A DNA stretch of 51,796 bases from Candidatus Thermoplasmatota archaeon (GTDB taxonomy: Archaea > Thermoplasmatota > E2 > DHVEG-1). The position numbers and the translations under genes were made by a program. Position 1 is the stretch's first letter. Each line of letters begins with the position of its first letter. Positions 11,256-34,675 of this stretch are shown here, piece by piece. The notes under the pieces were generated by a model, which worked only from the letters and a program-made list of their open reading frames with translations, was not told the origin of the DNA and made no database searches. The stretch is from contig JAWABU010000007.1 in NCBI GenBank assembly GCA_038884455.1, positions 1 through 51,796 on the forward strand, in the 5' to 3' direction.

Positions 11256-12530
11256 TTATTGTTCTTTTTCCAATTCTGAGATAAGTTCCTTGACTTTGTC
11301 TCGGAGTTCTATCATTCTTAGGTTCTGGCCGATTGCTACTTTTTTATATTTCTCGGTTTCTTTGTTTCCTTTTATTTGTTTAGTGATATCACGAGAGATA
11401 CCCATCGTTCCAATGATTTTGCCGTCCGGAGAATATCGTGGAATTTTAGTTACAGAAACCCATCGTTCAGACCCATCTTTTCCAACGATTTTTTCTGTCT
11501 CTGCAATAATCGGCTGACCAGTTTGTAAAATTTTTTGATCATCTTCAAAGGCTTTTCGTGCTTGATGTTCTGCTAAAAAATCAAAATCTGTTTTACCAAT
11601 CATTTCCTCAGGTTTAACTTGGGAATGTTCTGCTTTTGCCTTGTTGACCAGGATGAATCTGTTATTTTCATCTTTAAAGTAAATAGAGTCAGGTATGTTG
11701 TCAAGCAGTGATTGGAATAAACTGTGTTCGAGGATAAGTTTTTGTTCTGCTTGTTTCTGTGCGGTGATATCTCGTGAGATCCCCATAGTTCCGATGATTT
11801 GTCGTTGTTCGTTATAACGTGGTATTTTTGTTACTGATATCCAATGTTCTGATCCATCGCTTCGTTTGATATGTTCGATTTTATTGATGATAGGTTCTCC
11901 AGTTAACATCACCTGTGTGTCATCATACGATGCTTTTTCTGCTTCGAGCGGTTGTAAAAAGTGAAAATCTGTTTTTCCGATCATTTCTTCTGGCGTTACG
12001 TGAGAATGCGCCGCTTTTGCTTTGTTAACAAGAATAAATCGTTTGTGTTCATCTTTAAAATATATAGAATCAGGAATGTTATCCAGTAAAGATTGAAGTA
12101 GATGATGCTCAAAGGCCACTTTTGCTTCTGCTTTTTTTTGTTCTGAGATGTCTTTAATAATTCCGATAGAACCAATAATTGTTCCTTCTTTGTTTTTAAG
12201 AACACTTAAGGATAACGCAATATCGAGAGGTTCGTTATTTTTCCGTAGTATCTTTGTTTCCAGATGATGTTGCATGCCTTTTTGGCGGATGTTTTGTGAC
12301 CTGATTTTTTGCCATTCTTCTGGGGGGTATAACGTTTGAATAGGTTTTAGGTAAAGTTCTTCTTTTGTTAGTCCAAGGAGCTTTTCAGCATAGCGGTTCC
12401 AATGGATGAGTCGTTCTTGTGCATCAGTTACTGTGATTGCTACTGCTGAGTTTTCAAAAATAGTTTTGTACAATTCGTAGGAATCACCAACGAGCGTATC
12501 AACCATGGTTTCAATACATTCATGTGTCAT
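11256..12530 (-). CDS. Triple-PAS sensor protein without kinase
   Basis: 424 residues, soluble. Three PAS domains, at about 20-135, 145-265 and 270-390, each ending in the PAC signature (GSIGIIKDISEQ, GTMGISRDITAQ, GTMGISRDITKQ). The second and third are near copies (both SLLDNIPDSIYFKDE and VNKAKA). A C-terminal coiled coil (MIELRDKVKELISELEKEQ) replaces an output domain. The start lies about 50 nt after cheR on the same strand, so it is the last gene of the taxis operon. It may sense a redox cofactor or ligand and pass the signal on by binding; the partner is not visible. Confidence 0.75.
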   Translation of the reverse strand: MTHECIETMVDTLVGDSYELYKTIFENSAVAITVTDAQERLIHWNRYAEKLLGLTKEELYLKPIQTLYPPEEWQKIRSQNIRQKGMQHHLETKILRKNNEPLDIALSLSVLKNKEGTIIGSIGIIKDISEQKKAEAKVAFEHHLLQSLLDNIPDSIYFKDEHKRFILVNKAKAAHSHVTPEEMIGKTDFHFLQPLEAEKASYDDTQVMLTGEPIINKIEHIKRSDGSEHWISVTKIPRYNEQRQIIGTMGISRDITAQKQAEQKLILEHSLFQSLLDNIPDSIYFKDENNRFILVNKAKAEHSQVKPEEMIGKTDFDFLAEHQARKAFEDDQKILQTGQPIIAETEKIVGKDGSERWVSVTKIPRYSPDGKIIGTMGISRDITKQIKGNKETEKYKKVAIGQNLRMIELRDKVKELISELEKEQ

Positions 12531-12581: not shown

Positions 12582-13412
12582 TTATTTTCGGAAGATTCTT
12601 TCACGGAGATTGAAAGGTTTGAATTTATCCCTGCTGTTTCCAACTAGGGTCTCTGTTTTCCCCATGACAAAAAATCCTCCGGGATTTAAAGTATTATAGA
12701 AATCATCGTAGAGTACTTCTTGGAGTTCTCGAGTAAAATAAATGACGACATTTCTGCAGAAGATGATGTCGATGTTGTGTTTTTTTGGTCCTGATATGAG
12801 ATCATGGTATTCAAATCTAACAATACTTTTTAAACTTGGTTTGATTTCATAAACAGTATCGGTAATAGTAAAATATTTTTGATAGTTTTTGAGATATTGG
12901 ATTTGTTTTTCGATATCGGTTTGAATGATACCTGGACGTGAATGATAGACCCCTTGTGTTGCATGATTAAGGCAATCTCGATCAATGTCGGTTCCAAGGA
13001 TTTCAACGCGATTTCTCAGGTTTTGTTCTCCGAGAACCTCAGAAAAAAGCATTGCTATGCTATATGCTTCTTTTCCATCTGAACTTCCTGCACTCCAGAC
13101 GCGTATTGTTCCTTTTTTTTCTGCAAGTATTGTTGGTATCACATCTGTTTTAAAGGCATCGTAGACGGTGTTATCTCTGAAAAATTCTGTAACGTTAATG
13201 GTGAGTTCTTGGAGAAGTTTTTCTTGTTCTGCTTTATCTTTTTTTAAAAACTCCCAGTACGCATGGTAAGAATCAATGTGCAGTGCTCTGAGCCGTGAGT
13301 CAAACCGTCGGCCAAGATAGGTGTCCTTGTATTGGAAGGTGTTGAAGTCGAGAAGTTGTTTGACGTTTGCTTTAAGTTCTTGGAACTCCTGATCGAAGGG
13401 TTTGTCAAGCAT
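12582..13412 (-). CDS. cheR: Chemotaxis receptor methyltransferase CheR
   Basis: 276 residues. Methylates glutamates of MCP receptors using SAM. The N-terminal helical domain carries TYLGRRFDSRLRAL, followed by NVTEFFRD, the SAM-binding RVWSAGSSDGKEAYSIAM and DIIFCRNVVIYF, all classic CheR motifs, and ends in LNPGGFFVMGKTE. GAGAGGTGA lies 6 nt before the ATG. It sits 13 nt after cheD within the operon and opposes CheB. Confidence 0.93.
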   Translation of the reverse strand: MLDKPFDQEFQELKANVKQLLDFNTFQYKDTYLGRRFDSRLRALHIDSYHAYWEFLKKDKAEQEKLLQELTINVTEFFRDNTVYDAFKTDVIPTILAEKKGTIRVWSAGSSDGKEAYSIAMLFSEVLGEQNLRNRVEILGTDIDRDCLNHATQGVYHSRPGIIQTDIEKQIQYLKNYQKYFTITDTVYEIKPSLKSIVRFEYHDLISGPKKHNIDIIFCRNVVIYFTRELQEVLYDDFYNTLNPGGFFVMGKTETLVGNSRDKFKPFNLRERIFRK

Positions 13413-13425
13413 CGTTGTTCACCTC

Positions 13426-13914
13426 TCAGATGATTTTTTCTTCTGGTTCATTTGGTCCTTTTTTGACCATCTTTATTTTTAATTCACAGGTAACAGGATT
13501 GAAAATTATTGTTCTTCCTCGGTCACCACCAACATCTTTAGAAAGGATTGGTATTTTTTGTTGGGTTAAGATCCGTTCAACTGCCTCTGCGTTTCGTTCT
13601 CCGATTTTTAAATGATCTTCAGTGAAGGTAAACAGGCTTGCGCCTCCTGCTATTTTTGCTTTAAGTCGTGGTCGTTGTGCTCCTTTTGCAAGCATATCTT
13701 CAATCAGAGCTGGAAGTGCAGTATCTGCGTATTTTCCGATTTTGTCTTGTCTGTTTTCGATGGATGGAAGCATGATGTGGGACATCCCTGATATTTTTTT
13801 GAAATCGTCATAGATTACTGTGCCGATGCAGCTGCCGAGGCCAACCGTTGATATTTTTGTATCGCCTTCAACAACAACATATTCTCCAATGCCTATGACG
13901 ATGACATTATCCAT
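13426..13914 (-). CDS. cheD: Chemoreceptor deamidase CheD
   Basis: 162 residues. Deamidates receptor glutamines and binds CheC. Catalytic Cys in GLGSCIGTVIYD (near residue 29) and His in ISGMSHIMLPS (near residue 46) are present, with KIAGGASLF and IGERNAEAVERIL also typical. It starts 6 nt after the last cheC, so coupling is likely. In Bacillus and Thermotoga, CheC-CheD binding links CheY-P level to receptor activity; the tight cheC-cheD order suggests the same here. Confidence 0.93.
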   Translation of the reverse strand: MDNVIVIGIGEYVVVEGDTKISTVGLGSCIGTVIYDDFKKISGMSHIMLPSIENRQDKIGKYADTALPALIEDMLAKGAQRPRLKAKIAGGASLFTFTEDHLKIGERNAEAVERILTQQKIPILSKDVGGDRGRTIIFNPVTCELKIKMVKKGPNEPEEKII

Positions 13915-13920
13915 TGAGTG

Positions 13921-14607
13921 TTACCCCATATTCTTTGAGAGTGATTCAACATATTGTTTTGTTGGTTCATCATAGTGGTTTGAAACACAGGGTATTAATT
14001 TTGAGAGGAGCGCATCAAGTGATTGTGGTGAGGGAAGAAGAATAAATATCGATGTGAAAAGGTTGCTTTCATCAGTAAACTTAATGTCAAAAATCAAAGC
14101 ATGACTGGTCTCTGGACCAAGGTTTTTTGAAACTGTTTCGATGACTGCACCGGGCATATCATATTCGAATTTTGGTGGTGAAAGCCAAACAGTTGTGTTA
14201 AGAAGTTTACCAAGAGCATTCGTATATGCTGAGACAACGATATTTCCTACTTCAGTTATTGCTGATTTACCCATGTCATCAAGTTGTTGGGAGGTTCCTG
14301 GTTGCTGTCCTACGAGGAGATCAGCAAGATTTAACGCACTTTTCATAGGGAATAAAAAAAGGATGCTCCCGAGGAATTCTTTCGTAAGTTCAAGGTAGAC
14401 ACCGACGACTTTTTCATCTTTGATAAAAAGTTCATGCAGCGAATCTTTGAGTTCTGATACCTTCTTGATATGAAGGCTTGGTACGGAAATGTTCACACTT
14501 TTTCCGATCATTTGTGAGACCGCTGTGGCTGCATGTGAACAGCCAATATTTCCTGTTTCTTGTAAAGCGTCAAGTTGATTTGGGTTGAGTTGTTCTATAT
14601 TTGCCAT
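13921..14607 (-). CDS. cheC: CheY-P phosphatase CheC (copy 3)
   Basis: 228 residues, the longest of three tandem CheC paralogues. Both phosphatase half-sites are intact: DALQETGNIG near the N terminus and SAITEVGNI in the middle, each with the E and N that act on CheY-P. A strong GAGGAG lies 6 nt before the ATG. Compared with the other two it has a longer C terminus (FTSIFILLPSPQSLDALLSK then about 25 more residues) and a more diverged middle. It is next to cheD, its likely binding partner. Confidence 0.88.
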   Translation of the reverse strand: MANIEQLNPNQLDALQETGNIGCSHAATAVSQMIGKSVNISVPSLHIKKVSELKDSLHELFIKDEKVVGVYLELTKEFLGSILFLFPMKSALNLADLLVGQQPGTSQQLDDMGKSAITEVGNIVVSAYTNALGKLLNTTVWLSPPKFEYDMPGAVIETVSKNLGPETSHALIFDIKFTDESNLFTSIFILLPSPQSLDALLSKLIPCVSNHYDEPTKQYVESLSKNMG

Positions 14608-14626
14608 ATTTTTCTCCTCAGTTTAT

Positions 14627-15238
14627 TTAATTCATTCCAAGTTTTTGTAAGATGATTGATATTGATTTTGGTTCAGGAACTAGGAAAAGATTGATGTCGA
14701 AACTTTCTTTTCCTTCTTCTTTCACGTCGCAACTAAAGGTAACGACTTTATCTGCAACAGCTCCCATCTGTATAATGAGATAATCCATGATGGCGCAGGG
14801 CATATCATAGGCAAGTGCCGGCGGTCCTGGGATCATCGATATTCCAATTAATTCGGTAATGCTGTCGAAGAAAGCACACATCATTACGTTGCCAACTTCA
14901 CAGAGCGCTGATTTATCCATATCGGTGAGCGAGCCAACAGTTTCTGAATGTTCACCAAGGAGCATACGCGCAAGTGAAAACGCACTGTCTTTTGAAATAA
15001 GCAGAAGAATGTACGTCGGAATTTCATTTGATATTCTGAGATAGATTCCGACAACAACCTCTTGATCTTTTACGCAGTTGATAATCTGTTCAAGAGGTAC
15101 CACTTCAACTTTAGGAATCCCAATTTTAATATTTTTGTTAACCATGCGGGAGAGTGCTGTTGCAGCGTGAGAAGCGCCAATGTTTGCTACTTCTTGCAGA
15201 GCGTCTCGTTGGCCGTCGTTAATGGTAAGTTCTTGCAT
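14627..15238 (-). CDS. cheC: CheY-P phosphatase CheC (copy 2)
   Basis: 203 residues. Both active-site signatures are kept: RDALQEVANIGASHAATALS and DKSALCEVGNVMMCAFFDS, followed by a proline (GPPALAYD) as in active CheC. It is close to copy 1 (same length and same FFDSI.EL.GI..IPGPP core), so the two came from a recent duplication. AAAGGGA upstream serves as ribosome binding site. Spacing to neighbours is 15-19 nt. Confidence 0.88.
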   Translation of the reverse strand: MQELTINDGQRDALQEVANIGASHAATALSRMVNKNIKIGIPKVEVVPLEQIINCVKDQEVVVGIYLRISNEIPTYILLLISKDSAFSLARMLLGEHSETVGSLTDMDKSALCEVGNVMMCAFFDSITELIGISMIPGPPALAYDMPCAIMDYLIIQMGAVADKVVTFSCDVKEEGKESFDINLFLVPEPKSISIILQKLGMN

Positions 15239-15253
15239 GATTTTTCCCTTTTT

Positions 15254-15868
15254 TTATTTAACTCCTAGTTTTTCTAATAACGTATTGACTGCCTGTGGTT
15301 CAGGAAGGAGGAACATATGAATTTTAAGATGGTGTTGTTGTTCTTCCTGGAGTTCTACATTGAAGACAACAACTTGATTCGATATTGCTCCAATTTGGAT
15401 CAGAACATAATCGATCACTGCATCAGGTATATCGAACGCTAAATTGGGCGGACCTGGTATCACAGTAATACCTAAGAGTTCCGAAATGCTGTCGAAAAAT
15501 GCACAAATCATGATATTGCTGACCTCGCTTAATGCGGATTGGTCAATCTCAGAAAGGATTTCCTTGCTTTCTTCTGGTTTCTGTCCAAGAAGCATGTTTG
15601 CCAATGCGAACGCGCTTTGCCGAGGTATTAACAAAAGTACATAAGACGGTATTTCGTCGGATATTTTGAGAAAAACACCGACAACAATGCTTTCCTCTTT
15701 AACATATTCATTTACTTTTGACAAAGGAATGATTTCAACCTTTGGTATTCCCATATGAATTGATCGATTAATCATCTGCGATAAGACGGTTGATGCATGC
15801 CCTGCACCGATATTTGCAAGTTCTTGTAATGCATCTTTCTGGACCGGATTAAGGATAATTTCTTCCAT
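15254..15868 (-). CDS. cheC: CheY-P phosphatase CheC (copy 1)
   Basis: 204 residues. Active-site signatures KDALQELANIGAGHASTVLS and DQSALSEVSNIMICAFFDS are present. AGGAGA lies 7 nt before the ATG, 20 nt after the cheA stop. As in the other copies there is no extra domain, so differences in partner choice (CheD, CheY, second receiver) must lie in surface residues. Confidence 0.88.
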   Translation of the reverse strand: MEEIILNPVQKDALQELANIGAGHASTVLSQMINRSIHMGIPKVEIIPLSKVNEYVKEESIVVGVFLKISDEIPSYVLLLIPRQSAFALANMLLGQKPEESKEILSEIDQSALSEVSNIMICAFFDSISELLGITVIPGPPNLAFDIPDAVIDYVLIQIGAISNQVVVFNVELQEEQQHHLKIHMFLLPEPQAVNTLLEKLGVK

Positions 15869-15888: not shown

Positions 15889-17949
15889 TTAATCAATTAA
15901 CGTGTTAACATCAATAACAAGGATTACACGCCCATCCCCAGTTATAGTAACACCTGCGATTCCTTTTGTTTTTTTCAGTGATGTGCTGATATTTTTTATG
16001 GTAATTTCTTGCTCACCAATCAGGCGGTCTACAATGAGACCGATTTTTTTATCTTCTTTTTGAACAACAACACCGTACATCGTCGTCTTAGTTTGTTGTT
16101 CTCGGGGAACGTTGAGTATGTTCGTCATAGAGACAAGCGGTAAAATATCATTCCGGAGAAGAATCGCTGGACGTCCGTTGAGATATTGTATATCTTGAGG
16201 ATTTAAATTGATGGTTTCAGAGACATTATTTATCGGTATAGCATATGTTTCTTGTCCTACGCCAACAAAGAGTGCTTTGAAAATCGCAAGTGTAAGCGGC
16301 AGTCTAAGTAAAAATGCACTTCCTTTCCCGAGTTCTGAGTAAATTTCAACAGATCCATTGAGTCGTTCAATAGTTGATTTAACAACATCCATACCAACGC
16401 CTCTTCCTGAGATATTGGTAATCTTTTCCGCAGTACTCAAACCAGGTAAGAACATAAGGTTAAGTGCTTCTTTGTCATCAAGCTGATCGACTTCTTCTTG
16501 TGTTTTTAATCCTTTTTTAACTGCGGCTTTTCTCATAGCATTCGGGTCAATTCCTTTTCCATCATCGCGAACCGTGATGACTACATGGTTTCGTGTACGT
16601 TCAGCAAGAAGTTCAACTGTTCCCTCTTCAGGTTTTCCGCTTTGTCGTCGTATCTCTGGTGGTTCAATACCATGATCAATGGAATTTCTCAGGAGATGAA
16701 CAAGTGGATCACCAATTTCATCAAGAATCGTCCGATCAAGTTCAATACCTTCCCCAGTAATGATCAGGTTTACTTTTTTTCCATTGTCTCGTGCGAGATC
16801 TCTGATCATTCGAGGGAAACGATCAAAGACATGCTTCATCGGTATCATCCGTATCTGCAGAATTTTATCTTGGAGTTCTGTTGTTAGTCGATCGATGGTG
16901 TCAATCGTTTCTGAGAGGTCTTCGAGTTTATGATCAGCGGCGATTTGAGCAAGTCGTCCTTTGCTGATGACAAGTTCTCCGATAAGATTCATAAATTTAT
17001 CTAGTTGATCCATCCCGATTCGAATCGTTTGAACGGTCGTTTGGGTCTGTGTTTTTGTTTTTTCTTCAGTTTTTTTGACAGTTTGATCTTGTCCTAATTG
17101 AAAAGTAGCTTGGTGCAGTGGTGCTGGTTGCTGTTCTATTTTTTCTTGACTTTTCTCAGGAGGAATCACTTGAAGGCTATCATTGGTGTAACTGAGCGGA
17201 GTAACTGTTTTTACTGCGAGTTCTGAGACTGAATTAACAATCCGTTGTACTGCGTCTGGATTTTCATTTGAAGTATAGTACACTTCAAAACTATCGTCAA
17301 ACAAGCCGTTTTCTATTTGTTGCCGGTCAGGTTTTGACGTTACAATTTTTCCTTCGTCAGATAATTTTTTCAGAAGGAGAAATGCACGGATGGATTTCAT
17401 CGAGCAGGTTTTGTCAACAGTGATTGATATTTTATAGGCGTATTTTCCGTTTTTAAGTTCTGTTATGATTTGTTGTTGGAACGTTTGATCTAGAGATATT
17501 GTTGTTTCAGATGGTTTTTGTGGTTGAGGTTTTTGTTGATGATCTGTGGTTTGAGGTACTGGATTGGTTTGAGTATGTTTTTCCAGTTCGGCGATAAGAC
17601 CTTGAATATCATACTCGGTCATATCTTGTGCTGCGATATCTTCGACCATTTTTTCGATACCATCAAAACATTTGAAGATAAGATCAATGATTTGTGGATT
17701 GACTTCAAGTTTGTTGTTTCTGATAAGATCGAGGGTATCTTCAGTTTTATGGGACAGTTTTTGTATTTTATCATAGTTGAGTGTTGCTGACATTCCCTTG
17801 ATGGTGTGCGCTGCTCTAAAAATTTTGTTGAGAGCATCTTTATTTTTTGGATCTTTTTCAAAATCGAGTAATGACTGGTTGAGTGTTTGGAGATGTTCGC
17901 GGGCTTCTTCCACAAACATTTCTTTATATTCCTGTGTGTTTCCGGCCAT
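15889..17949 (-). CDS. cheA: Chemotaxis histidine kinase CheA
   Basis: 686 residues with full domain order. P1 Hpt domain with phosphorylatable H48 in FRAAHTIKGMSATL. A P2-like CheY-binding domain at about 155-265 is set off by Gln/Pro-rich linkers. P3 dimerisation domain starts IGMDQLDKFMNLIGELVI. P4 ATPase has N box LLRNSIDHGIEPPE, VRDDGKGIDP and GRGVGMDVVK. P5 is CheW-like, ending GVTITGDGRVILVIDVN. GGAGG lies 9 nt before the ATG. It starts 1 nt after the cheB stop, so translation is coupled. It phosphorylates CheY and CheB. Confidence 0.95.
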   Translation of the reverse strand: MAGNTQEYKEMFVEEAREHLQTLNQSLLDFEKDPKNKDALNKIFRAAHTIKGMSATLNYDKIQKLSHKTEDTLDLIRNNKLEVNPQIIDLIFKCFDGIEKMVEDIAAQDMTEYDIQGLIAELEKHTQTNPVPQTTDHQQKPQPQKPSETTISLDQTFQQQIITELKNGKYAYKISITVDKTCSMKSIRAFLLLKKLSDEGKIVTSKPDRQQIENGLFDDSFEVYYTSNENPDAVQRIVNSVSELAVKTVTPLSYTNDSLQVIPPEKSQEKIEQQPAPLHQATFQLGQDQTVKKTEEKTKTQTQTTVQTIRIGMDQLDKFMNLIGELVISKGRLAQIAADHKLEDLSETIDTIDRLTTELQDKILQIRMIPMKHVFDRFPRMIRDLARDNGKKVNLIITGEGIELDRTILDEIGDPLVHLLRNSIDHGIEPPEIRRQSGKPEEGTVELLAERTRNHVVITVRDDGKGIDPNAMRKAAVKKGLKTQEEVDQLDDKEALNLMFLPGLSTAEKITNISGRGVGMDVVKSTIERLNGSVEIYSELGKGSAFLLRLPLTLAIFKALFVGVGQETYAIPINNVSETINLNPQDIQYLNGRPAILLRNDILPLVSMTNILNVPREQQTKTTMYGVVVQKEDKKIGLIVDRLIGEQEITIKNISTSLKKTKGIAGVTITGDGRVILVIDVNTLID

Positions 17950-17950
17950 A

Positions 17951-19465
17951 TTAGACGGCCTCCATAATTTTTGGTTTCGTCATTAATTTAAGGTAAGCGT
18001 TAATCTGAGCAGGTATTTGATCAAGCGGGAGTACTGAATCAACGACGCCCAGTTTAATTGCTGCATCAGGCATGCCAAAAATGATTGACGTTGATTCGTC
18101 TTGAGCGATTGTTTTTCCTCCTTTTGCTTTGATCAGGCCCATAGAATGAGCTCCATCTTGTCCCATGCCCGTGAGTATCACACCAATTGTGTTTGCTCCG
18201 AAGACATTCGCTGCTGAAGCAAACGTGATATCAACTGCAGGTCGCACGCCATGAATTCGTTCTTCCTTATTAAGAGAAACAAATCGTTTTTTGATACCAT
18301 TAACTGTTTTTTCGTAGACAGTCATGTGGAAATCTCCAGGAGCAAGTAGTGCTTTTCCTGGAAGAATCTCATCGCCTTCTGCTGCTTCTTTGACTCGAAT
18401 TTGAGATATTTTGTCAAGACGATCAGCTAATGATTTGGTGAAGACTGGAGGCATATGTTGAACGATCAGGATACCTGCAGGAATGTCCCCTGGTATCTGA
18501 GGTATCAGTGAAGCGAGTGTTTGGGGTCCTCCGGTTGATGTTCCAATAAGAAGTATTTTTTCGGTTGTTGTCGAAATGGTATTTGCTTCTGTTTTTTTGG
18601 GAGTTTGTCGAACTGCTTCTCGGATTCGTCTTATGAGGAGAGGAGCAACTGAATGCATCGACATATTTTCTGTTGGTTTTGGGATGAAATCGATTGCACC
18701 GAGTTCTAAAGCTAGTTTTACATCGTTCATTCCTTCTTTTGTGCGACTGCTGCAAATGATGATTGGTATTGGTTGTTGCTTAAGTATGTTAAACGTTGCA
18801 TCGACGCCGCTCATGACGGGCATGTCGATATCCATGATGATGACATCAGGATGACTTTTCTGGACTTTTTCTATTGCTTCCTGTCCGTTTTGCGCATAGT
18901 CTATGACATGTAAATCTGGTTCTCGATTGATGAGGTCAGTAAGTGTTTTTGCAAAAAAGTAGGAATCATCGACGAGGAGTACATTGATTTTTGGTTTTGT
19001 ATACGAAAGTGAAAGCAGCGGCTTTTTGAATTTGTGTTTTGTCGCTGCTGCTTGTTTTACCTTTGCGATGATGTCTGTTCCAATAGTTGCGATATCTGTA
19101 GATATCGAACCTGACGGTTTAGGGATGAAATCTACGGCTCCTGCATGGAGTGCATCAAGTGTTACTTCTGCTCCTTGGGTTGTTATAGCACTGAGCATGA
19201 CTATAGGTGTTGGTTGTTTTTCCATGATGTATTTGACTGCGTCAATGCCATTCATATTCGGCATTTCTACGTCCATGGTGATAACATCAGGTTGTAATCG
19301 GAGGGTTTTTTCGACTGCTTCTTGTCCATCTCGTGCGGTGTCAACGACCTGGATTGCTGGATCAGTTCGAAGAATATCGCTAATCAGTTTTCGCATTAAT
19401 GCTGAATCATCTACAACAAGTGCTCGTATCGACACAGAGTGCATCTCCTCTCTTAACGGATTCAT
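17951..19465 (-). CDS. cheB: CheB methylesterase with two receiver domains
   Basis: 504 residues, against about 350 for usual CheB. Receiver 1 spans about 12-130 with phospho-acceptor D65 (VITMDVEMP), receiver 2 about 158-275 with D212 (IIMDIDMP). Both keep the CheB-like GA.DFIPKP end. The methylesterase domain has catalytic S310 (LIGTSTGGPQ), H337 (VQHMPP) and D437 (TGMGQDG). It removes methyl groups from receptor glutamates. The ATG at 19465 overlaps the cheY stop (TAATG), which suggests coupling; a GTG at 19435 with GAGGAG 9 nt before it is an alternative start. The extra receiver is unusual and probably arose by duplication of the first. Confidence 0.92.
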   Translation of the reverse strand: MNPLREEMHSVSIRALVVDDSALMRKLISDILRTDPAIQVVDTARDGQEAVEKTLRLQPDVITMDVEMPNMNGIDAVKYIMEKQPTPIVMLSAITTQGAEVTLDALHAGAVDFIPKPSGSISTDIATIGTDIIAKVKQAAATKHKFKKPLLSLSYTKPKINVLLVDDSYFFAKTLTDLINREPDLHVIDYAQNGQEAIEKVQKSHPDVIIMDIDMPVMSGVDATFNILKQQPIPIIICSSRTKEGMNDVKLALELGAIDFIPKPTENMSMHSVAPLLIRRIREAVRQTPKKTEANTISTTTEKILLIGTSTGGPQTLASLIPQIPGDIPAGILIVQHMPPVFTKSLADRLDKISQIRVKEAAEGDEILPGKALLAPGDFHMTVYEKTVNGIKKRFVSLNKEERIHGVRPAVDITFASAANVFGANTIGVILTGMGQDGAHSMGLIKAKGGKTIAQDESTSIIFGMPDAAIKLGVVDSVLPLDQIPAQINAYLKLMTKPKIMEAV

Positions 19466-19830
19466 TAACCAAGGATTTTTTCTACTTCTTCAAGAACCTG
19501 AGGTGCTTGGAATGGTTTAACAATATATCCTTTTGCGCCGGCTTCGATTGCCTCTTTAACTTTCGTATCTTGCCCAACTGCAGTAACCATGATGATTTTT
19601 GCGTTGCTGTCTACGGTGGATATAATGTTTCGTACCGCCTCGATTCCCTCCATATGTGGCATGACGATATCCATGGTTACAAGATCTGGTTTAAATTGTT
19701 TATATTTTTCAATGGCGTCAAGACCGTCTTCTGCTTCTGCGACGATTTCATATCCCTTGGGTTTAAGGATATTTGCAAGCATCATTCTCATAAATTTTGT
19801 GTCGTCTACAAGCATGATTCTTTTTCCCAT
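19465..19830 (-). CDS. cheY: Chemotaxis response regulator CheY
   Basis: 121 residues, a single receiver. D9/D10 (LVDDTKFMR), phospho-acceptor D54 (LVTMDIVMPHMEG), Thr in MVTAVGQ and Lys in YIVKPFQ are all present. The start at 19830 is set by GAGGAGGG 4 nt upstream; the frame is open to 19887 but those residues look non-native. Phosphorylated by CheA, it acts in archaea through CheF on the archaellum base; its cheF gene is directly upstream. Confidence 0.93.
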   Translation of the reverse strand: MGKRIMLVDDTKFMRMMLANILKPKGYEIVAEAEDGLDAIEKYKQFKPDLVTMDIVMPHMEGIEAVRNIISTVDSNAKIIMVTAVGQDTKVKEAIEAGAKGYIVKPFQAPQVLEEVEKILG

Positions 19831-19911: not shown

Positions 19912-20847
19912 TTATTTTGCTAAGGCTTTTTTCATTTGTTCAACAATGTATTTTGTTCCAAGTTCTGTTATTTCAACTTCATTTTCATTAACGGTGCGTA
20001 AAATTTTCATTTGAACGAGTTGATGGACAACTTTTTCGAGTTCTTCCATGGAGACGCCAAGCATTTCCATAGCCATTGGTGCATCAATGTCACTAGTGTA
20101 CATCATCTGGAGGAGCATGAATTGTTTTTCATCGAGGCTAATTGCTTCTTCCTCTGTTTCGATAACGCCTTTGATAAGTTTGACGTATTTATCAAGACAG
20201 TGAATAATTCGATTGGGTGCAGTGATCAGTGTTGAAATTAAAGTTCCATCTTTGAGATAGGTTAAGGTGTGTGATGCTATACCTTTTCCTGAGCTGTTAT
20301 CGGGGCTTGTTTGAAAATCATTGATATGGATGAGGTCGATTTCTTCAATCTGTTTTTTTCCAAGCCATTCACTCACCAGAAGTACTTTTGATTCGTCAAT
20401 GTAGATTTTTCCGTTAACTGGTTTTTTATCAAGTTGTATTTTTCCTCCAAGTGCAAATGGGCATACGTAGTCGATATCAGAACCGTTGAGGATAAGGATA
20501 AAAAGAAGTTTTTTGATGAGGTCTGCAGTTTCTTTTGATGTTGAGATGAGTGATATAACTTCGATGTTATTGTTTTGATGATGGATTGGAAGTATTTTTG
20601 CAGTTCCAACGATCTTTTTCCAAAGATCTATTTTTTTGTCAACCTCAGTAATCATGGAAAGCGGAATGCTTATCGCTTTATCTTCAGCTGGTCTGTTGTC
20701 AATCTCAGGGATGAAAATCAACCGTATGCTGGTAAGCATGATATATCCGTTTTTCCAACTTTGATCATTTCTTTTATCATTTATATCTGATACTGGAGAA
20801 ATGTATTTTATGTATGTGTTTGGTAGAACAACTTGTTCTTCAGTCAT
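19912..20847 (-). CDS. cheF: Archaeal taxis adaptor CheF
   Basis: 311 residues resembling the archaea-only CheF family, which joins CheY and the CheC/CheD proteins to the archaellum switch complex. Typical are the N-terminal barrel segment SWKNGYIMLTSIRLIFIPEI with ISIPLSMITEVDKK, and a C-terminal helix-turn-helix-like part (QFMLLQMMYTSDIDAPMAME, MEELEKVVHQLVQMKILRTV). First gene of the taxis operon. A TATA-like AAGGTATATTTTC at 20864-20876 is about 22 nt from the ATG, so the mRNA may be leaderless. Archaellum genes themselves are outside the window. Confidence 0.82.
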   Translation of the reverse strand: MTEEQVVLPNTYIKYISPVSDINDKRNDQSWKNGYIMLTSIRLIFIPEIDNRPAEDKAISIPLSMITEVDKKIDLWKKIVGTAKILPIHHQNNNIEVISLISTSKETADLIKKLLFILILNGSDIDYVCPFALGGKIQLDKKPVNGKIYIDESKVLLVSEWLGKKQIEEIDLIHINDFQTSPDNSSGKGIASHTLTYLKDGTLISTLITAPNRIIHCLDKYVKLIKGVIETEEEAISLDEKQFMLLQMMYTSDIDAPMAMEMLGVSMEELEKVVHQLVQMKILRTVNENEVEITELGTKYIVEQMKKALAK

Positions 20848-27818: not shown

Positions 27819-28226
27819 TTAGTATAACCCATGTTCATTGAAACATTGTGAATATCGTTTATCGGTTCCTTTGATATGGTTTACCAACCAATCTCTGAGA
27901 AAATTCATTACATCCATAGTTAATACTGTTCTTCCTGTTTTGAAATCATTTTGGAACGCAAGGACTTTTTGGACGAATTGTTTATGTTCTGCTTTATGTC
28001 GTACTGCTTCTGAAAAACGGAATTGATCAAAGTATTTTTCTTCAGTGCTGAAATGTGTTCCAGCGTAGGTGATGAGCTCGTCAAGAATTGGTGCTATAGC
28101 TGTCTTTCCTTGACCGACTTTCATCAGTTCATGGAGTTGATTTAACATTTCTACGAGTCTTTGATGTTGGATGTCGATCTCCTTGACGTTAACACTAAAT
28201 GATGCATCCCAGTTCATTAAAGCCAT
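27819..28226 (-). CDS. Bacteriohemerythrin
   Basis: 135 residues, a single four-helix hemerythrin domain that binds O2 at a di-iron site. All seven ligands are visible: H21, H58, E62 (HFSTEEKYF), H77 and H81 (RHKAEHKQF), H117 and D122 (NHIKGTDKRY). It follows cheW by 15 nt and lies in the MCP operon, which suggests oxygen sensing or supply for taxis rather than bulk storage. This is inferred from position only. Confidence 0.92.
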   Translation of the reverse strand: MALMNWDASFSVNVKEIDIQHQRLVEMLNQLHELMKVGQGKTAIAPILDELITYAGTHFSTEEKYFDQFRFSEAVRHKAEHKQFVQKVLAFQNDFKTGRTVLTMDVMNFLRDWLVNHIKGTDKRYSQCFNEHGLY

Positions 28227-28241
28227 AGCGAACCCATCTTA

Positions 28242-28790
28242 TCAACTAGCAGATTTTTTTTCTTCGAGTGTTTTAAGGTTTTGCTCTGCAGTTTTCTGCG
28301 CTTGCCAAATCTGCTCATAATCCTTTGATTCAAGAACCTTGCTCAAATCAAGCAACGTCAACAAACGCTTCTCATCCAAAATACCAACACCCTCAATATA
28401 ATTATGGTCAATACTGCTCGTAATCATACTCGGCGCATCACGAATCTTCTCACCTTCAAGTCGTAGTACTTCAGTCGCACTATCCACGATCATACCTACC
28501 GTATTATTCCCTACCTCAACCACCAAAATCCTCGTATCATCATCCACCGGTTTCGACGGCAATCCTAGCTTCATCGCAAGATCATTGACCACAATAATAT
28601 TTCCACGGAGATTAATCACTCCTTTAATGAAAGGAAGTGTATTTGGAATACGGGTTACTTCTTCCCAGCGGATGATTTCTTTGACTTTATTGATATTCAC
28701 CCCGAACTCTTCGCCAGCGAGCTCAAACACCACCAACTGCTGCTCATTAAACGACTTTTTCGTTGTGTTGCTTTCAGTTCCAACAGGCAT
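28242..28790 (-). CDS. cheW: Chemotaxis coupling protein CheW
   Basis: 182 residues. Couples MCP to CheA. Typical marks: QLVVFELAGEEFGVNINKVKEI, IPNTLPFIKGVINLRGNII, and VGMIVDSATEVLRLEGEKI. The short C-terminal extension (QIWQAQKTAEQNLKTLEEKK) is helical. It lies 28 nt after the MCP gene. The other che genes lie 8 kb away, beyond the hyp cluster; CheA has its own CheW-like P5 domain. Confidence 0.94.
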   Translation of the reverse strand: MPVGTESNTTKKSFNEQQLVVFELAGEEFGVNINKVKEIIRWEEVTRIPNTLPFIKGVINLRGNIIVVNDLAMKLGLPSKPVDDDTRILVVEVGNNTVGMIVDSATEVLRLEGEKIRDAPSMITSSIDHNYIEGVGILDEKRLLTLLDLSKVLESKDYEQIWQAQKTAEQNLKTLEEKKSAS

Positions 28791-28818
28791 ATCTATTCCT
28801 CTCAGTCACCTTGCACCA

Positions 28819-31080
28819 TTAACTTTTAATCTCAGGATTCTTCGGAGTCTCGACCGCAGTTGATGCTTCAGCAGCAGGATTGCTTTTCCAATGTTTCTCC
28901 TGCTGCTGCCGATGATGCAGTAAAGTTTTTTTCACAGGTTGATGTACGACTGGCTGCGATGATGACACCGGTGATGATGTTGTGGTGGGAGACGTATTTT
29001 TATGCTCCCACGACGAAGTAGATGTTGTTGTTTTTTCTCCATCGAGCTTGAACTTTGAAACGATGTTTTTGAGATCACTGGCAATTGATGCCATCTGTTG
29101 TGCTGCGCTGGAAACCTGCTGCATTGACGAGGTGACTTCTTGAATTGATGCACTGACTTCTTCAGCGCCGCTTGCGTTTTCCTGTGCAACCGCTCCGACT
29201 TCCTGAGCTGATTTGTTCACTGCATTAATCACTGTTGGCAACAGTTCAAATGCGGCGACTGCTGCAGCGACACCTTTTCCGCCTTCTTCAACTTGTTTCG
29301 TATTTTCGCCCATACTGCGAACCGCGCTTTCGATTTCTGCTTGAATTCCTTGGATGAGGTTGGAGATTTGTTGAGTTGCCTGACTTGACTCCTCCGCAAG
29401 TTTTCTGACTTCATCAGCAACGACGGCAAAACCACGACCTGCTTCGCCAGCACGTGCTGCTTCAATTGCAGCATTCAATGCAAGCAGATTGGTTTGTTCA
29501 CTGATCTGATTAATGGTGTTGACGATTTGTCCGATTTCCTTGGATTTTTCACCAAGCGCTGCAATTTTCTGAGCACCTTCCAAAGTGGTTTTCTTAATTA
29601 GTTCCATTTTTTGACTAACGTCTTGTGCGGCTTGTTGACCTTTCGCCGAGGATTCTCCTGCTTGCTGAGCTTGTCGAAGCATGGTCTCTGAGTCTTTTGC
29701 TGTGTTCTGTGAACCTGTTGCGACTTGTTGAATGGTACTTGAAACTTCCTCCATACTTGCATTGACTTCCTCTGCACTTGAGGAGAGTTCTTCAGCGCTA
29801 CTTGCAACCTGCTCAGTACTATTTTTAACTGCAGTTATCGTTTCTCGAAGTCCATCGAGCATCGTCTTAAATCCATCAGCAAGTTTCTTTACATCGCCTT
29901 TGACACCCTCAACAGCGATATCCTGCGTGAGATCTCCTTGAGCGATATAACCTGCAGAAGTTGCTATCTGCGCGACAGGTTGAGCAACGTTATCAAGCAT
30001 CTCATTTAACGATGCTGCCATAAGACCGATTTCATTAGTACTTTTAATACTGCATCGTTTTGAGAGATCACCGGTTTCTGCAAGTTGTTTGAGTTCGCTG
30101 CCGATGGTTGCAAGTGGTTTGGTGATTGAACGGGTAATGGTCCATGCAAGAATCACACCTATTGCTATGGATAATCCAAGAAATACGATGATCATCATGT
30201 TTGCCTGGAGTTGTGCTGCTGCCTGTTGCTCATGGGCAATCGATACGATCAGATACGCACCGCCATAATAGGTATCTCCTTGCTGACTGCTTCCCATGAT
30301 TTTGCTGCCTGCTTCAACCATACCTTCGAGGGCGGCTGCTTTTGCGACTTCATTTTGATGATATATATTTGCTTGTGCTAAATATCGAGAAATATGATTT
30401 ACAACGTTATCTGCTTCTGTTTTAAGTTCTGTGTTTCCTGCAGCTGCAGCTAAAGTTAAAAGTTTCGCTGCTTCAGTTTGTGTTGCAGTCATTGCTGTAT
30501 CAAATGCGGTCCATTTCTCTTCAGTAGGTGTTCTAATATAGTCGAGAGCTGCTACCCGGTGTAAAATGAATTTAGCTTCAACCACATGTGATTGTTCGCT
30601 TACAGTACTTCCAGGTGTTGTTAAGGTTCTGATTTTTGCAATCTCAGCATTGAACGCTGCTCCTATAGCAGTCCATTCAGGTAAAACCTCATTGGCATTT
30701 GATTCTGTTTTAGCAATGTAGGTATCAAGATGAGTTTTATAATTTGCAAGCGGCGTTGCCATTCCATCAAGAATTCCTTGTATCTGCGAATCAATAATCA
30801 TTGTTTTCATTTCAGTTATTCGATCACTAATCGTTGTCAGCTGTTTATTTGCATTGGTAACATAGACGTCCTCACCATATAACATGTAATTGTTGACCTG
30901 CCTTCGAAGTTCAATAGTATCAGCAACAATCCACGCTGCATCATTCGTTGTTTCACTAGTTAACGCTGCCGTACCAAGCGCATTATATCCCACGATACCA
31001 ACTGCTGCAGTTAATACGATTAGGGTCACAAATCCGATCACCAGCTTCTTACTTATTTTCATATCATTCCATTTTCCCAT
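28819..31080 (-). CDS. Methyl-accepting chemotaxis protein
   Basis: 753 residues. TM1 at about 12-34, a long all-helical outside domain of about 255 residues (HBM-like bimodular helical bundle, such as [17 protein letters not shown] and [14 protein letters not shown]), TM2 at about 290-312 ([19 protein letters not shown]), HAMP ([22 protein letters not shown]), and a signalling hairpin with tip [19 protein letters not shown]. Glu/Gln-rich methylation helices with EEVSSSIQ-type repeats are on both sides. A disordered Ser/Thr/His-rich tail of about 75 residues follows. The ATG at 31080 is set by GAGGAG; 5 codons upstream look non-native. Confidence 0.93.
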
Positions 31081-31187
31081 AATTTCTCTCCTCATGTTCT
31101 ATTTGTTTTTTCTTTTTACGGAGAACGGCGAGAAAAAATTATTTTTTAAGTATATCTACGCTGTACTTCTTTCCCTAATTTACGTCT

Positions 31188-31394: not shown

Positions 31395-31835
31395 CTAAGC
31401 ATCAGGGATGTGTTCTAAAACATCTTCGATGATTTTTAATTTTGTTTCTGAAAGTTCGTACGGCTTCTCAAGAAGTTTGTCAATACGTTGTTTTAAATCT
31501 TTGATCTCAAACGGTTTTTCAATATACGCATCTCCAAGAATCTTCCCAAAACCACGGCTGAAATTATCAGTTTTAGCAGTGAGAAACGCCACTGGGATTT
31601 TTTTCCAAGATTCATGTTTTCGAAGTTTTTTATACACTTCCCAACCGTTCATCTCAGGCATCATAATGTCGAGAAGGATCAGATCGGGTATTTTGTTTTT
31701 TTCAAGGAGTTCAAAACATTTTTTCCCGCTGTCAACTTCAATAACCGTATAGTTTGGATCAAGCGTTTCAAGTCCATCTTTCACAGTATACGTAATGAGA
31801 CGACTATCATCAACAATCATAATCTTTTTAGTCAC
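31395..31835 (-). CDS. Single-domain response regulator
   Basis: 146 residues: a receiver with D9/D10 (MIVDDSRLI), phospho-acceptor D56 (LILLDIMMPEMNGWEVYK), T in FLTAKTD and K in YIEKPFE, then a short helical tail of about 25 residues and no DNA-binding domain. GTG start with GGAGATGG about 5 nt upstream. It lies 41 nt after the five-PAS histidine kinase and is its likely phosphate acceptor, perhaps controlling other proteins by contact. Confidence 0.85.
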   Translation of the reverse strand: MTKKIMIVDDSRLITYTVKDGLETLDPNYTVIEVDSGKKCFELLEKNKIPDLILLDIMMPEMNGWEVYKKLRKHESWKKIPVAFLTAKTDNFSRGFGKILGDAYIEKPFEIKDLKQRIDKLLEKPYELSETKLKIIEDVLEHIPDA

Positions 31836-31876: not shown

Positions 31877-34675
31877 TTATGTATCTTTCCTTTTATTCAT
31901 GGGCAACGTGAAAAACATCGTTGTCCCCTTTCCAATTCCTGGGCTTTCTGCCCATATCTTTCCACCATGTTTTTCGATAATGCGTTTTGTAATAGACAAT
32001 CCAAGACCGCTTGAATCAAGCTCATGACGAGATGAATCACCTTTGTAAAATTCTTGAAAGATGAGTTCGCGTTGATCTTCTCGTAACCCAACACCCGTGT
32101 CTGTAACCGAGATGGTGAGAGTGTCGTTAGTTATTGAAGATCGAAGTATGATTTTTCCAGGATGTTGAACAGTATATTTTCGTGCATTTGAAAGTAGATT
32201 ATCAAACACTTCTTCGATGCGTAATCTATCGACAGTAACCAACAATGGAGACGTGATATGATTTTCAATGGTAATTTGTTTTCCTTCAAAAAGATACTTA
32301 TCACGATTGATAATAGATTGAACTAGTGAACCGATATCAACCGTTTCGAATTCAAACTCAATCTTATCAGAATTAAGTTTTGCAAGTTCAATGGTTTTTA
32401 CTACGAGGTCCTTCATATAATTGACACATGAAATTGCAACTTGTAATCGTTCCCGTGATTTTGCATCCTGTTCCCGCTCAAGTACCATAGGGAGTAGGTT
32501 AACCAACGGGGATAACGGAGTTTTTAAATCATGGCCAAGCTGATTGATAAATTCGTCTTTCATTTTTAATAACTGTTCAATTTCAGTATATGCTTTTTTT
32601 AATTCAGTTAAATCAACAGCAACACCGCGTGTTCCAACTACGCTAGTGTCCTCATAGATTGGTACTGAATAGATCATCATTGGAATTTTTGTTCCATCTT
32701 TTTTAACAAAAATATATTCATTTCCGTGAGAACTTTTCCCCGAAAGAGTATTATAATAGTTTTCTTTAAATTTTTGTAGTTCTTTTGGATCAAGAAGCTG
32801 AGTAATATATAATCCTTTATCAAGATCAGATGGTTCATATCCAAAAAGTGTAAACGCTTTTTTATTACCATACGTTATTTTCCCTTGAAGATCTGACTCA
32901 AAGATTGACTCAGGGAGAAGTTCAGCAAGATCACGAAATCTTTTTTCACTTTTTTTCAATTCAGTTTCTGCTTTTTTTCTTTGAGTTATATCACGAAAGA
33001 TTCCTTGAGTACCAATAACTTTCCCACGACAATATCTTGGAATTGCGTTTCCTTCTACAAGAACAGCAGCACCATCTTTAGTAATAAACTTCGTTTCGAT
33101 ATGTTGAATTTTTTCTCCGCCGAGAACACGAGAGAACAACTCGACACATTTCGGAAGATCTTCCGCATGGATAATATCAGTTAAAACAAGTTTCGATAAC
33201 TCTTCTTTTGAATATCCTAGAATTGCCATCCACGCAGGGTTAACATACATAAAATGCCCCTGCAGATCAACACTTTGAATCATATCATAGGTTTGTTCGA
33301 AAAGAGAACGATATCTCTCTTCATTTTCAATGAGTGTAGCTTCAGCTTTTTTCCGTTGAGTAACATCCCGTAAAACCGCAAGTAATCCTTGCGTTCCATT
33401 CTCCAAAGTATATGGAACTGCATTGATTTCTACATCCCGAACATCTCCTTTTTTTGTAATAATTTTTACCTCGTAAGGATCAACAGACATACCAAGTTTT
33501 CTCTTAATATTATTCTGAATCATCGTAAAAAAAGTTCCTTTTTCAATGATATCTGATAATGACCGTATGTTTCTACCGACAAGTTCTTCACGAGAATATC
33601 CGCTAATCTCTAATGCCGTCTGATTGATATCGTAAATAGTATTCTTATTGTCAAGGATTATGATACCATCTGCTGCATGGTGAAAAATTGTCCGATATCG
33701 TTGTTCACTCTCACGTACTCTCTTTTCAGATTCTTTCTCTTGAGTTTTATCACGAATAATAACAAAATCAGCATTGCCACCTTCATATGGAATCAAACCA
33801 GCATTAATATCTGCATATACCTTTTTCCCATCTTTACGAATAAGAACTGTTTCATACGTTACAGGAACAGAACGTCCCTCGAGTCGTTGTTTATAGTACT
33901 GAAGAATTTTTTTTCGCTCTGTTGGATCAACATACTCAAGAAAAGAGGTTCCAATAATCTCTTCAACAGTACCACCCCACATCTCTGCAAGACGGGGATT
34001 GACGTATCGAACGATTGAATCTTTAATAATGAGGATCCCATCGTTCGCCCGTTCAACGAGATTTCGAAATTTCTCCAAATCCTCCCGCTGAGATGTAATG
34101 TCCTTTCCAACAACAAGAATAAACCGTAAGCGATTATTTTCCTTTATAGGATAGGTAGAAACATTTAGAAGATGTTTTCTCTGCTCTTTATCATAGAACT
34201 CAACGGGAACGTTTTTGAGATGCTGACCAAGAAGAACGTTTTTAAAAATTCTCAAAGCAAGTAACAGAAGGTTACCATGTAACAAACCAGGGATTCTCCA
34301 GAAAGGCTGACCAACCACTTCCCTATCAGAAAAACCAGAATACGTCCGTGCCGCTGGGTTCACCATGATCACACGGCCGCGTGCATCCAGATAAACCATT
34401 AAATCGCTTGTAATTTCATAGAGAAGTTTTTCGATATTGGTCAATCTGCTTGCGGGAGTATCAGAATCATGCTCATGCGCAATCTGATACTGACTTGTAT
34501 CATGAATAATGTGTTCGATTTCAGAAAAAAGATGATAAGTATCTTGTTCACCATTGTGTTCCTTGTGTTCCAAGAAGGAATTCGTCTGCATTGAATTATG
34601 AAGTGCCTGCATTTGTTCTTGCAGTCGAAGCTCTCGAACAATATCAGGTTCTTTGCTCACCTCACACCATCCCAT
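31877..34675 (-). CDS. Cytosolic five-PAS histidine kinase
   Basis: 932 residues, no membrane helix. Five PAS domains follow an N-terminal helical part: starts near LLYEITSDLMVYLD (about 80), FRNLVERANDGILI, YRTIFHHAADGIII, YRSLFEQTYDMIQS and FRDLAELLPESIFE, each with PAC tails such as IFRDITQRKKAE. Then HisKA with the phospho-His in LGHDLKTPLSP, and HATPase with N box DNLLSNARKYT, SVTDTGVGL and GLGLSITKRI. A TATA-like stretch 30 nt before the ATG suggests a leaderless start at 34675. It probably senses intracellular redox state or small ligands. Confidence 0.9.
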   Translation of the reverse strand: MGWCEVSKEPDIVRELRLQEQMQALHNSMQTNSFLEHKEHNGEQDTYHLFSEIEHIIHDTSQYQIAHEHDSDTPASRLTNIEKLLYEITSDLMVYLDARGRVIMVNPAARTYSGFSDREVVGQPFWRIPGLLHGNLLLLALRIFKNVLLGQHLKNVPVEFYDKEQRKHLLNVSTYPIKENNRLRFILVVGKDITSQREDLEKFRNLVERANDGILIIKDSIVRYVNPRLAEMWGGTVEEIIGTSFLEYVDPTERKKILQYYKQRLEGRSVPVTYETVLIRKDGKKVYADINAGLIPYEGGNADFVIIRDKTQEKESEKRVRESEQRYRTIFHHAADGIIILDNKNTIYDINQTALEISGYSREELVGRNIRSLSDIIEKGTFFTMIQNNIKRKLGMSVDPYEVKIITKKGDVRDVEINAVPYTLENGTQGLLAVLRDVTQRKKAEATLIENEERYRSLFEQTYDMIQSVDLQGHFMYVNPAWMAILGYSKEELSKLVLTDIIHAEDLPKCVELFSRVLGGEKIQHIETKFITKDGAAVLVEGNAIPRYCRGKVIGTQGIFRDITQRKKAETELKKSEKRFRDLAELLPESIFESDLQGKITYGNKKAFTLFGYEPSDLDKGLYITQLLDPKELQKFKENYYNTLSGKSSHGNEYIFVKKDGTKIPMMIYSVPIYEDTSVVGTRGVAVDLTELKKAYTEIEQLLKMKDEFINQLGHDLKTPLSPLVNLLPMVLEREQDAKSRERLQVAISCVNYMKDLVVKTIELAKLNSDKIEFEFETVDIGSLVQSIINRDKYLFEGKQITIENHITSPLLVTVDRLRIEEVFDNLLSNARKYTVQHPGKIILRSSITNDTLTISVTDTGVGLREDQRELIFQEFYKGDSSRHELDSSGLGLSITKRIIEKHGGKIWAESPGIGKGTTMFFTLPMNKRKDT

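Follow-up and report, generated by a model that had tools for sequence, protein, structure and literature searches.

The window, a stretch of 51,796 nucleotides, contains a chemotaxis operon in which cheF, cheY, cheB, cheA, three cheC genes, cheD, cheR and a PAS-only gene are arranged head to tail on the minus strand. The cheF gene (19912–20847; PF04283) encodes the archaeal adaptor from CheY to the archaellum. Together with archaellins and the phylum sampled, CheF marks the source organism as an archaeon, perhaps of the Thermoplasmatota. The cheY gene (19465–19830) starts with an ATG at 19830 behind GAGGAGG, and its stop codon overlaps the upstream ATG of cheB (TAATG). Directly after cheB is cheA (15889–17949), whose product contains Hpt, P2, dimerisation, HATPase and CheW-like domains. 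It is followed by three genes for CheC-type phosphatases (13921–15868) and by cheR and cheD (12582–13914), all assigned by Pfam. The three cheC-type genes were kept in two further genera, and one was seen in the related genome G205. The gene that closes the operon (11256–12530) encodes a polypeptide of 424 amino acid residues that has three PAS domains and neither an MCP nor a kinase domain. This three-PAS protein, a candidate sensor or adaptor, was also found at the operon end in the related genomes G088 and G063 with identities of 61–67%. Beyond hypothetical genes, cheW is found on the minus strand together with the only MCP gene of the genome, whose product is the presumed substrate of CheB (28242–31095; Pfam). 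The window thus encodes CheB alongside CheA, CheR and a methyl-accepting receptor, and the genome has a single CheB. Immediately downstream of cheW and the MCP gene is a gene for a hemerythrin-domain protein (27819–28226, minus strand), which may connect taxis to oxygen or redox state.

The cheB open reading frame (17951–19465, minus strand) encodes 504 amino acid residues when counted from its ATG. The true start is probably the GTG at 19435, which would yield a product of 494 amino acid residues (17951–19435). The GTG is preferred over the ATG at 19465 because it is located 9 nt past a GAGGAG ribosome-binding site and because this is also where the homologs of G088, G063 and G205 begin, with GTG, GTG and ATG, respectively. 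In the 494-residue numbering, D65 and D212 become D55 and D202; the 504-residue numbering is used elsewhere in the text.

Pfam identified two Response_reg stretches (family E-value 1.8e-48) and a CheB_methylest domain at residues 306–488 (E-value 4e-64; 216 bits, with a cut-off of 24 bits) in this reading frame, which places all three domains of the two-receiver, one-esterase CheB proposed by the first-pass annotation. The first receiver, REC1 (residues 12–139; 19049–19432), is a canonical CheB-type receiver with up to 70% identity to archaeal CheB receivers. The second, REC2 (residues 159–288; 18602–18991), is a diverged CheB-type receiver, as judged from Pfam, alignments and CheB signature positions. 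The catalytic domain of a CheB methylesterase/deamidase occupies residues 301–490 (17996–18565) according to Pfam and alignments. With two receivers in place of the single one of the usual REC-CheB layout, the protein is a variant CheB that still belongs to the enzyme family.

The residues required for phosphorylation are complete in both receivers, which are D19, D20, D65, S92 and K116 in REC1 and D166, D167, D212, S239 and K263 in REC2. Re-reading of the sequence confirmed the acceptors D65 and D212 that had been reported previously and the GA-DFIPKP motif at the end of each receiver. The esterase triad, also described before as intact, consists of S310, H337 and D437 and was invariant in both alignments made. 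With both quintets intact, neither receiver would, by its sequence, be unable to accept phosphate.

To survey the lineage, 390 genomes of the source phylum and 45 genomes of the source family were searched. Full-length REC-REC-CheB genes were found in four genomes of four different genera, which are the source genome, G088, G063 and G205, and this excludes chance or misassembly as its origin. The proteins of the latter three were 57–66% identical to that of the source over the alignment. The gene order cheF-cheY-cheB-cheA-cheC(x3)-cheD-cheR-PAS was kept in G088 and G063, and the order cheY-cheB-cheA-cheC-cheD-cheR was kept on the short contig of G205. All four CheB-bearing genomes among the 45 family genomes carried the REC-REC-CheB layout; none of the 45 with a CheB match at an E-value of 1e-30 or lower was found without the second receiver. 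Two family members without REC-CheB, L020 and L023, possess long proteins in which a CheB-like start runs into CheR-like sequence, apparently a separate CheB-CheR type. The ten quintet residues of REC1 and REC2 and the catalytic triad were unchanged across all four REC-REC-CheB proteins. As 48 of the 130 REC2 positions were invariant among them, the chance that all five functional residues of REC2 would be invariant is about 0.7%. Given that such a rare layout is common to four related genera, the second receiver is probably useful to its carriers.

Each of the four genomes contained exactly one MCP, and REC2 thus does not serve to choose among several receptors. No MCP was found in nine further family genomes checked, all nine of which contained archaellin-family genes. 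These nine archaellated relatives are apparently receptor-less. Thus, it is the che system, not motility, that marks off the four genomes.

The samples searched outside the family came from the phyla of Methanolobus (295 genomes), Geobacter (148 genomes), Methanothermococcus (36 genomes), Kiloniella (150 genomes) and a Bacillota MAG (300 genomes), and GTDB contigs contributed the best 80 of 575 relatives. For most of the listed CheBs whose frames could accommodate two receivers, the reading was repeated with our own REC and CheB profiles. Among 240 CheB open reading frames scoring at least 100 bits in all loci examined, 229 had one receiver, three had none and eight had two. All eight were the four family proteins, which recurred in overlapping loci. 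Outside the family, the matches listed in about 1,330 genomes of six phyla included one REC-REC-CheB, L228 (1707–3311, minus strand) from the Kiloniella-phylum sample, which is unrelated. In this single open reading frame, two barely recognisable receivers precede the CheB domain; their phosphorylatable Asp residues are replaced by Glu and Asn, and the second receiver is without the acid pair. Several other candidates did not have this layout. The 516-residue frame of G026 proved to be a single-receiver CheB of 356 amino acid residues with an adjoining cheY, and the full-length match of L161 was a protein ending in a receiver, followed by a stop codon and then cheB. Other long frames in other phyla were single-receiver CheBs with N-terminal extensions or long linkers, or frames crossing stop codons. 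REC-REC-CheB is therefore rare outside the family, not common, although the evidence is of rarity among the matches listed and is not a census. No paper describing REC-REC-CheB was found in the literature consulted.

The distance of REC1 from ordinary CheB receivers was only slightly greater than the distance of those receivers from each other, and its identity to the CheB receivers of Methanococcales reached 70%. Segment by segment, REC1 was close to the average of CheBs, with alpha2 alone somewhat below it. The mean identities among the four proteins were 62–67% for REC1 and 53–56% for REC2. The faster evolution that these sequence identities suggest for REC2 is compatible with a partly relaxed function. 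The REC2 sequences formed one clade (SH-aLRT 100), retained 6.5 of the 8 CheB-type signature positions that are missing from CheYs, and resembled the same CheB receivers as REC1 did (r 0.56). In 47 single-receiver CheBs, the receiver aligned to REC1 and left REC2 as an insert. A tree constrained to a clade of REC1 and REC2 had a lnL 11.2 above that of the free search, with a non-significant AU test, and a tree constrained to a clade of REC2 and CheY had a lnL 6.0 below that of the free tree (p-AU 0.395). REC2 is thus CheB-type in spite of its faster evolution, which favors duplication over capture of a CheY. The best account of these sequence comparisons would be one duplication of a CheB receiver before the split of the four genera. 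The domain duplication suggested by the first-pass annotation is accordingly the better-supported account by likelihoods and signature positions, both of which disfavor a captured CheY, but a CheY origin is not formally rejected by the AU test. A chimaeric protein was also considered, given that REC1 is near the CheB of Methanococcales and the catalytic domain near Methanophagales-like CheB. Unequal rates suffice to explain this pattern, because the two reference groups differ from each other in the same way (61.6% for the receiver and 48.5% for the catalytic domain).

In CheB of the E. coli type, the receiver covers the active site as long as it is unphosphorylated, and upon phosphorylation the interface between the receiver and the catalytic domain opens (PMC8609364). 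A Thr in alpha4 that is found in 95% of CheBs is present in REC1 as T102 and is V or I in REC2. The divergence of REC2 concerns helix alpha1 and the alpha4 face. Its beta4-alpha4 segment is the least CheB-like (30%), yet is 58% conserved among the four proteins. Because the sequence typical of CheB receivers, with the Thr in alpha4, is kept by REC1 and REC2 is diverged, we infer that the esterase is gated by REC1 and that REC2 modulates this. The protein is the single true CheB of an archaeal chemotaxis system with one receptor, and both of its receivers are likely to obtain their phosphate from CheA, encoded by the adjacent gene. REC1 probably occludes the esterase when unphosphorylated and frees it when phosphorylated. 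REC2, located between REC1 and the enzyme, would accept phosphate as well, and its kinetic effect could be a need for two events for release, a tuning of the threshold or storage of phosphate. We give about even odds to this reading as a whole, in which CheA feeds both receivers of a duplicated-receiver CheB, REC1 gates and a further phospho-dependent step comes from REC2. Its stricter form, in which demethylation requires that one CheA phosphorylates both receivers and the adaptation feedback becomes two-step (threshold or ultrasensitive), is only tentatively put forward.

It is also conceivable, with a probability well below even, that REC2 is the actual gate and REC1 an extra N-terminal receiver for CheA docking or a phosphate sink. 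In the sequence, REC2 is the receiver that adjoins the catalytic domain, and the alignments of some single-receiver CheBs run uninterrupted over residues 160–493, which cover REC2 and the catalytic domain. Moreover, the Foldseek alignments to CheB structures extended over about 340 residues with no large gap, which is what REC2 together with the catalytic domain would give. However, REC2 is a diverged receiver that is weakest in alpha4 and is without the CheB-wide Thr, and it is REC1 that carries the canonical CheB sequence. In the AlphaFold model, the single domains were good (pLDDT 88), and domain placement was uncertain (pTM 0.60; 0.53 for REC1-REC2 alone). Comparison with closed CheB structures by Foldseek gave an rmsd of about 17 Å, so that gating by either receiver was not seen in the model.

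The divergence of REC2 on alpha1, the usual kinase-docking helix, and the presence of several further kinase-like genes in the genome are in line with a second kinase that phosphorylates REC2, so that CheB would integrate two inputs. The five-PAS histidine kinase (31877–34675), which had been suggested to feed CheB, is about 12 kb away beyond hypothetical genes and adjoins its own receiver gene (31395–31835). Its best relative elsewhere, which is 51% identical over residues 442–929, was found in G088 and is the sole clear one among the three related genomes; the che operon of G088 is on a different contig. In G063 and G205, only the kinase core was matched (45–48%). Besides cheA, no kinase gene was seen in the conserved operon. 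An input from this kinase was thus not borne out, and a second kinase for REC2 is in general improbable; CheA remains the preferred donor for both receivers.

In PleD, one of the two receivers is an adaptor. PleD was among the Foldseek matches, and both receivers are degenerate in L228, the REC-REC-CheB from outside the family. These two observations would suit a REC2 that is a structural or dimerisation adaptor and whose phosphorylation is of little consequence. Different from degenerate adaptors, however, REC2, which is about 54% identical among the four genera, keeps its five phosphorylation residues in all of them, and the PleD-like degeneracy of a second receiver is not found here. An adaptor role is thus unlikely, and REC2 is better viewed as a phospho-acceptor.

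Our results from this study identify a confirmed, conserved and lineage-restricted CheB variant, which is a domain duplication within a well-known enzyme. The adaptation feedback of chemotaxis consists in the activation of CheB by phosphorylation. This natural CheB combines two intact receivers with a single receptor and a single che operon, and it therefore offers a compact system in which to ask whether the strength or timing of this feedback changes with a second phosphorylation site.

Tandem receivers in one response regulator are found in PleD and FrzZ. The output of PleD is a diguanylate cyclase and FrzZ has none, whereas the output of the protein in this study is a methylesterase (for PleD, see PMC5907407). 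Similar to CheBs of E. coli/Salmonella (1A2O), Pectobacterium (6YMZ) and Haloarcula (7ESG), it possesses a catalytic domain with a Ser-His-Asp triad and an N-terminal CheB-type receiver, and its che operon context is likewise shared with REC-CheB methylesterases. Different from these CheBs, it has a second intact receiver inserted between REC1 and the esterase. L228 also has two receiver-like domains ahead of a CheB domain in one open reading frame, but it belongs to a separate lineage (28% identity) and, unlike the protein in this study, has Glu and Asn at the phosphorylatable Asp positions. Similar to archaeal CheB in a 2018 census of archaeal two-component systems, the protein is encoded by a single-copy gene beside cheY in a chemotaxis operon. 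The typical architectures in that census are only CheB and REC-CheB, to which REC-REC-CheB adds an architecture missing from the list (PMC5847659).
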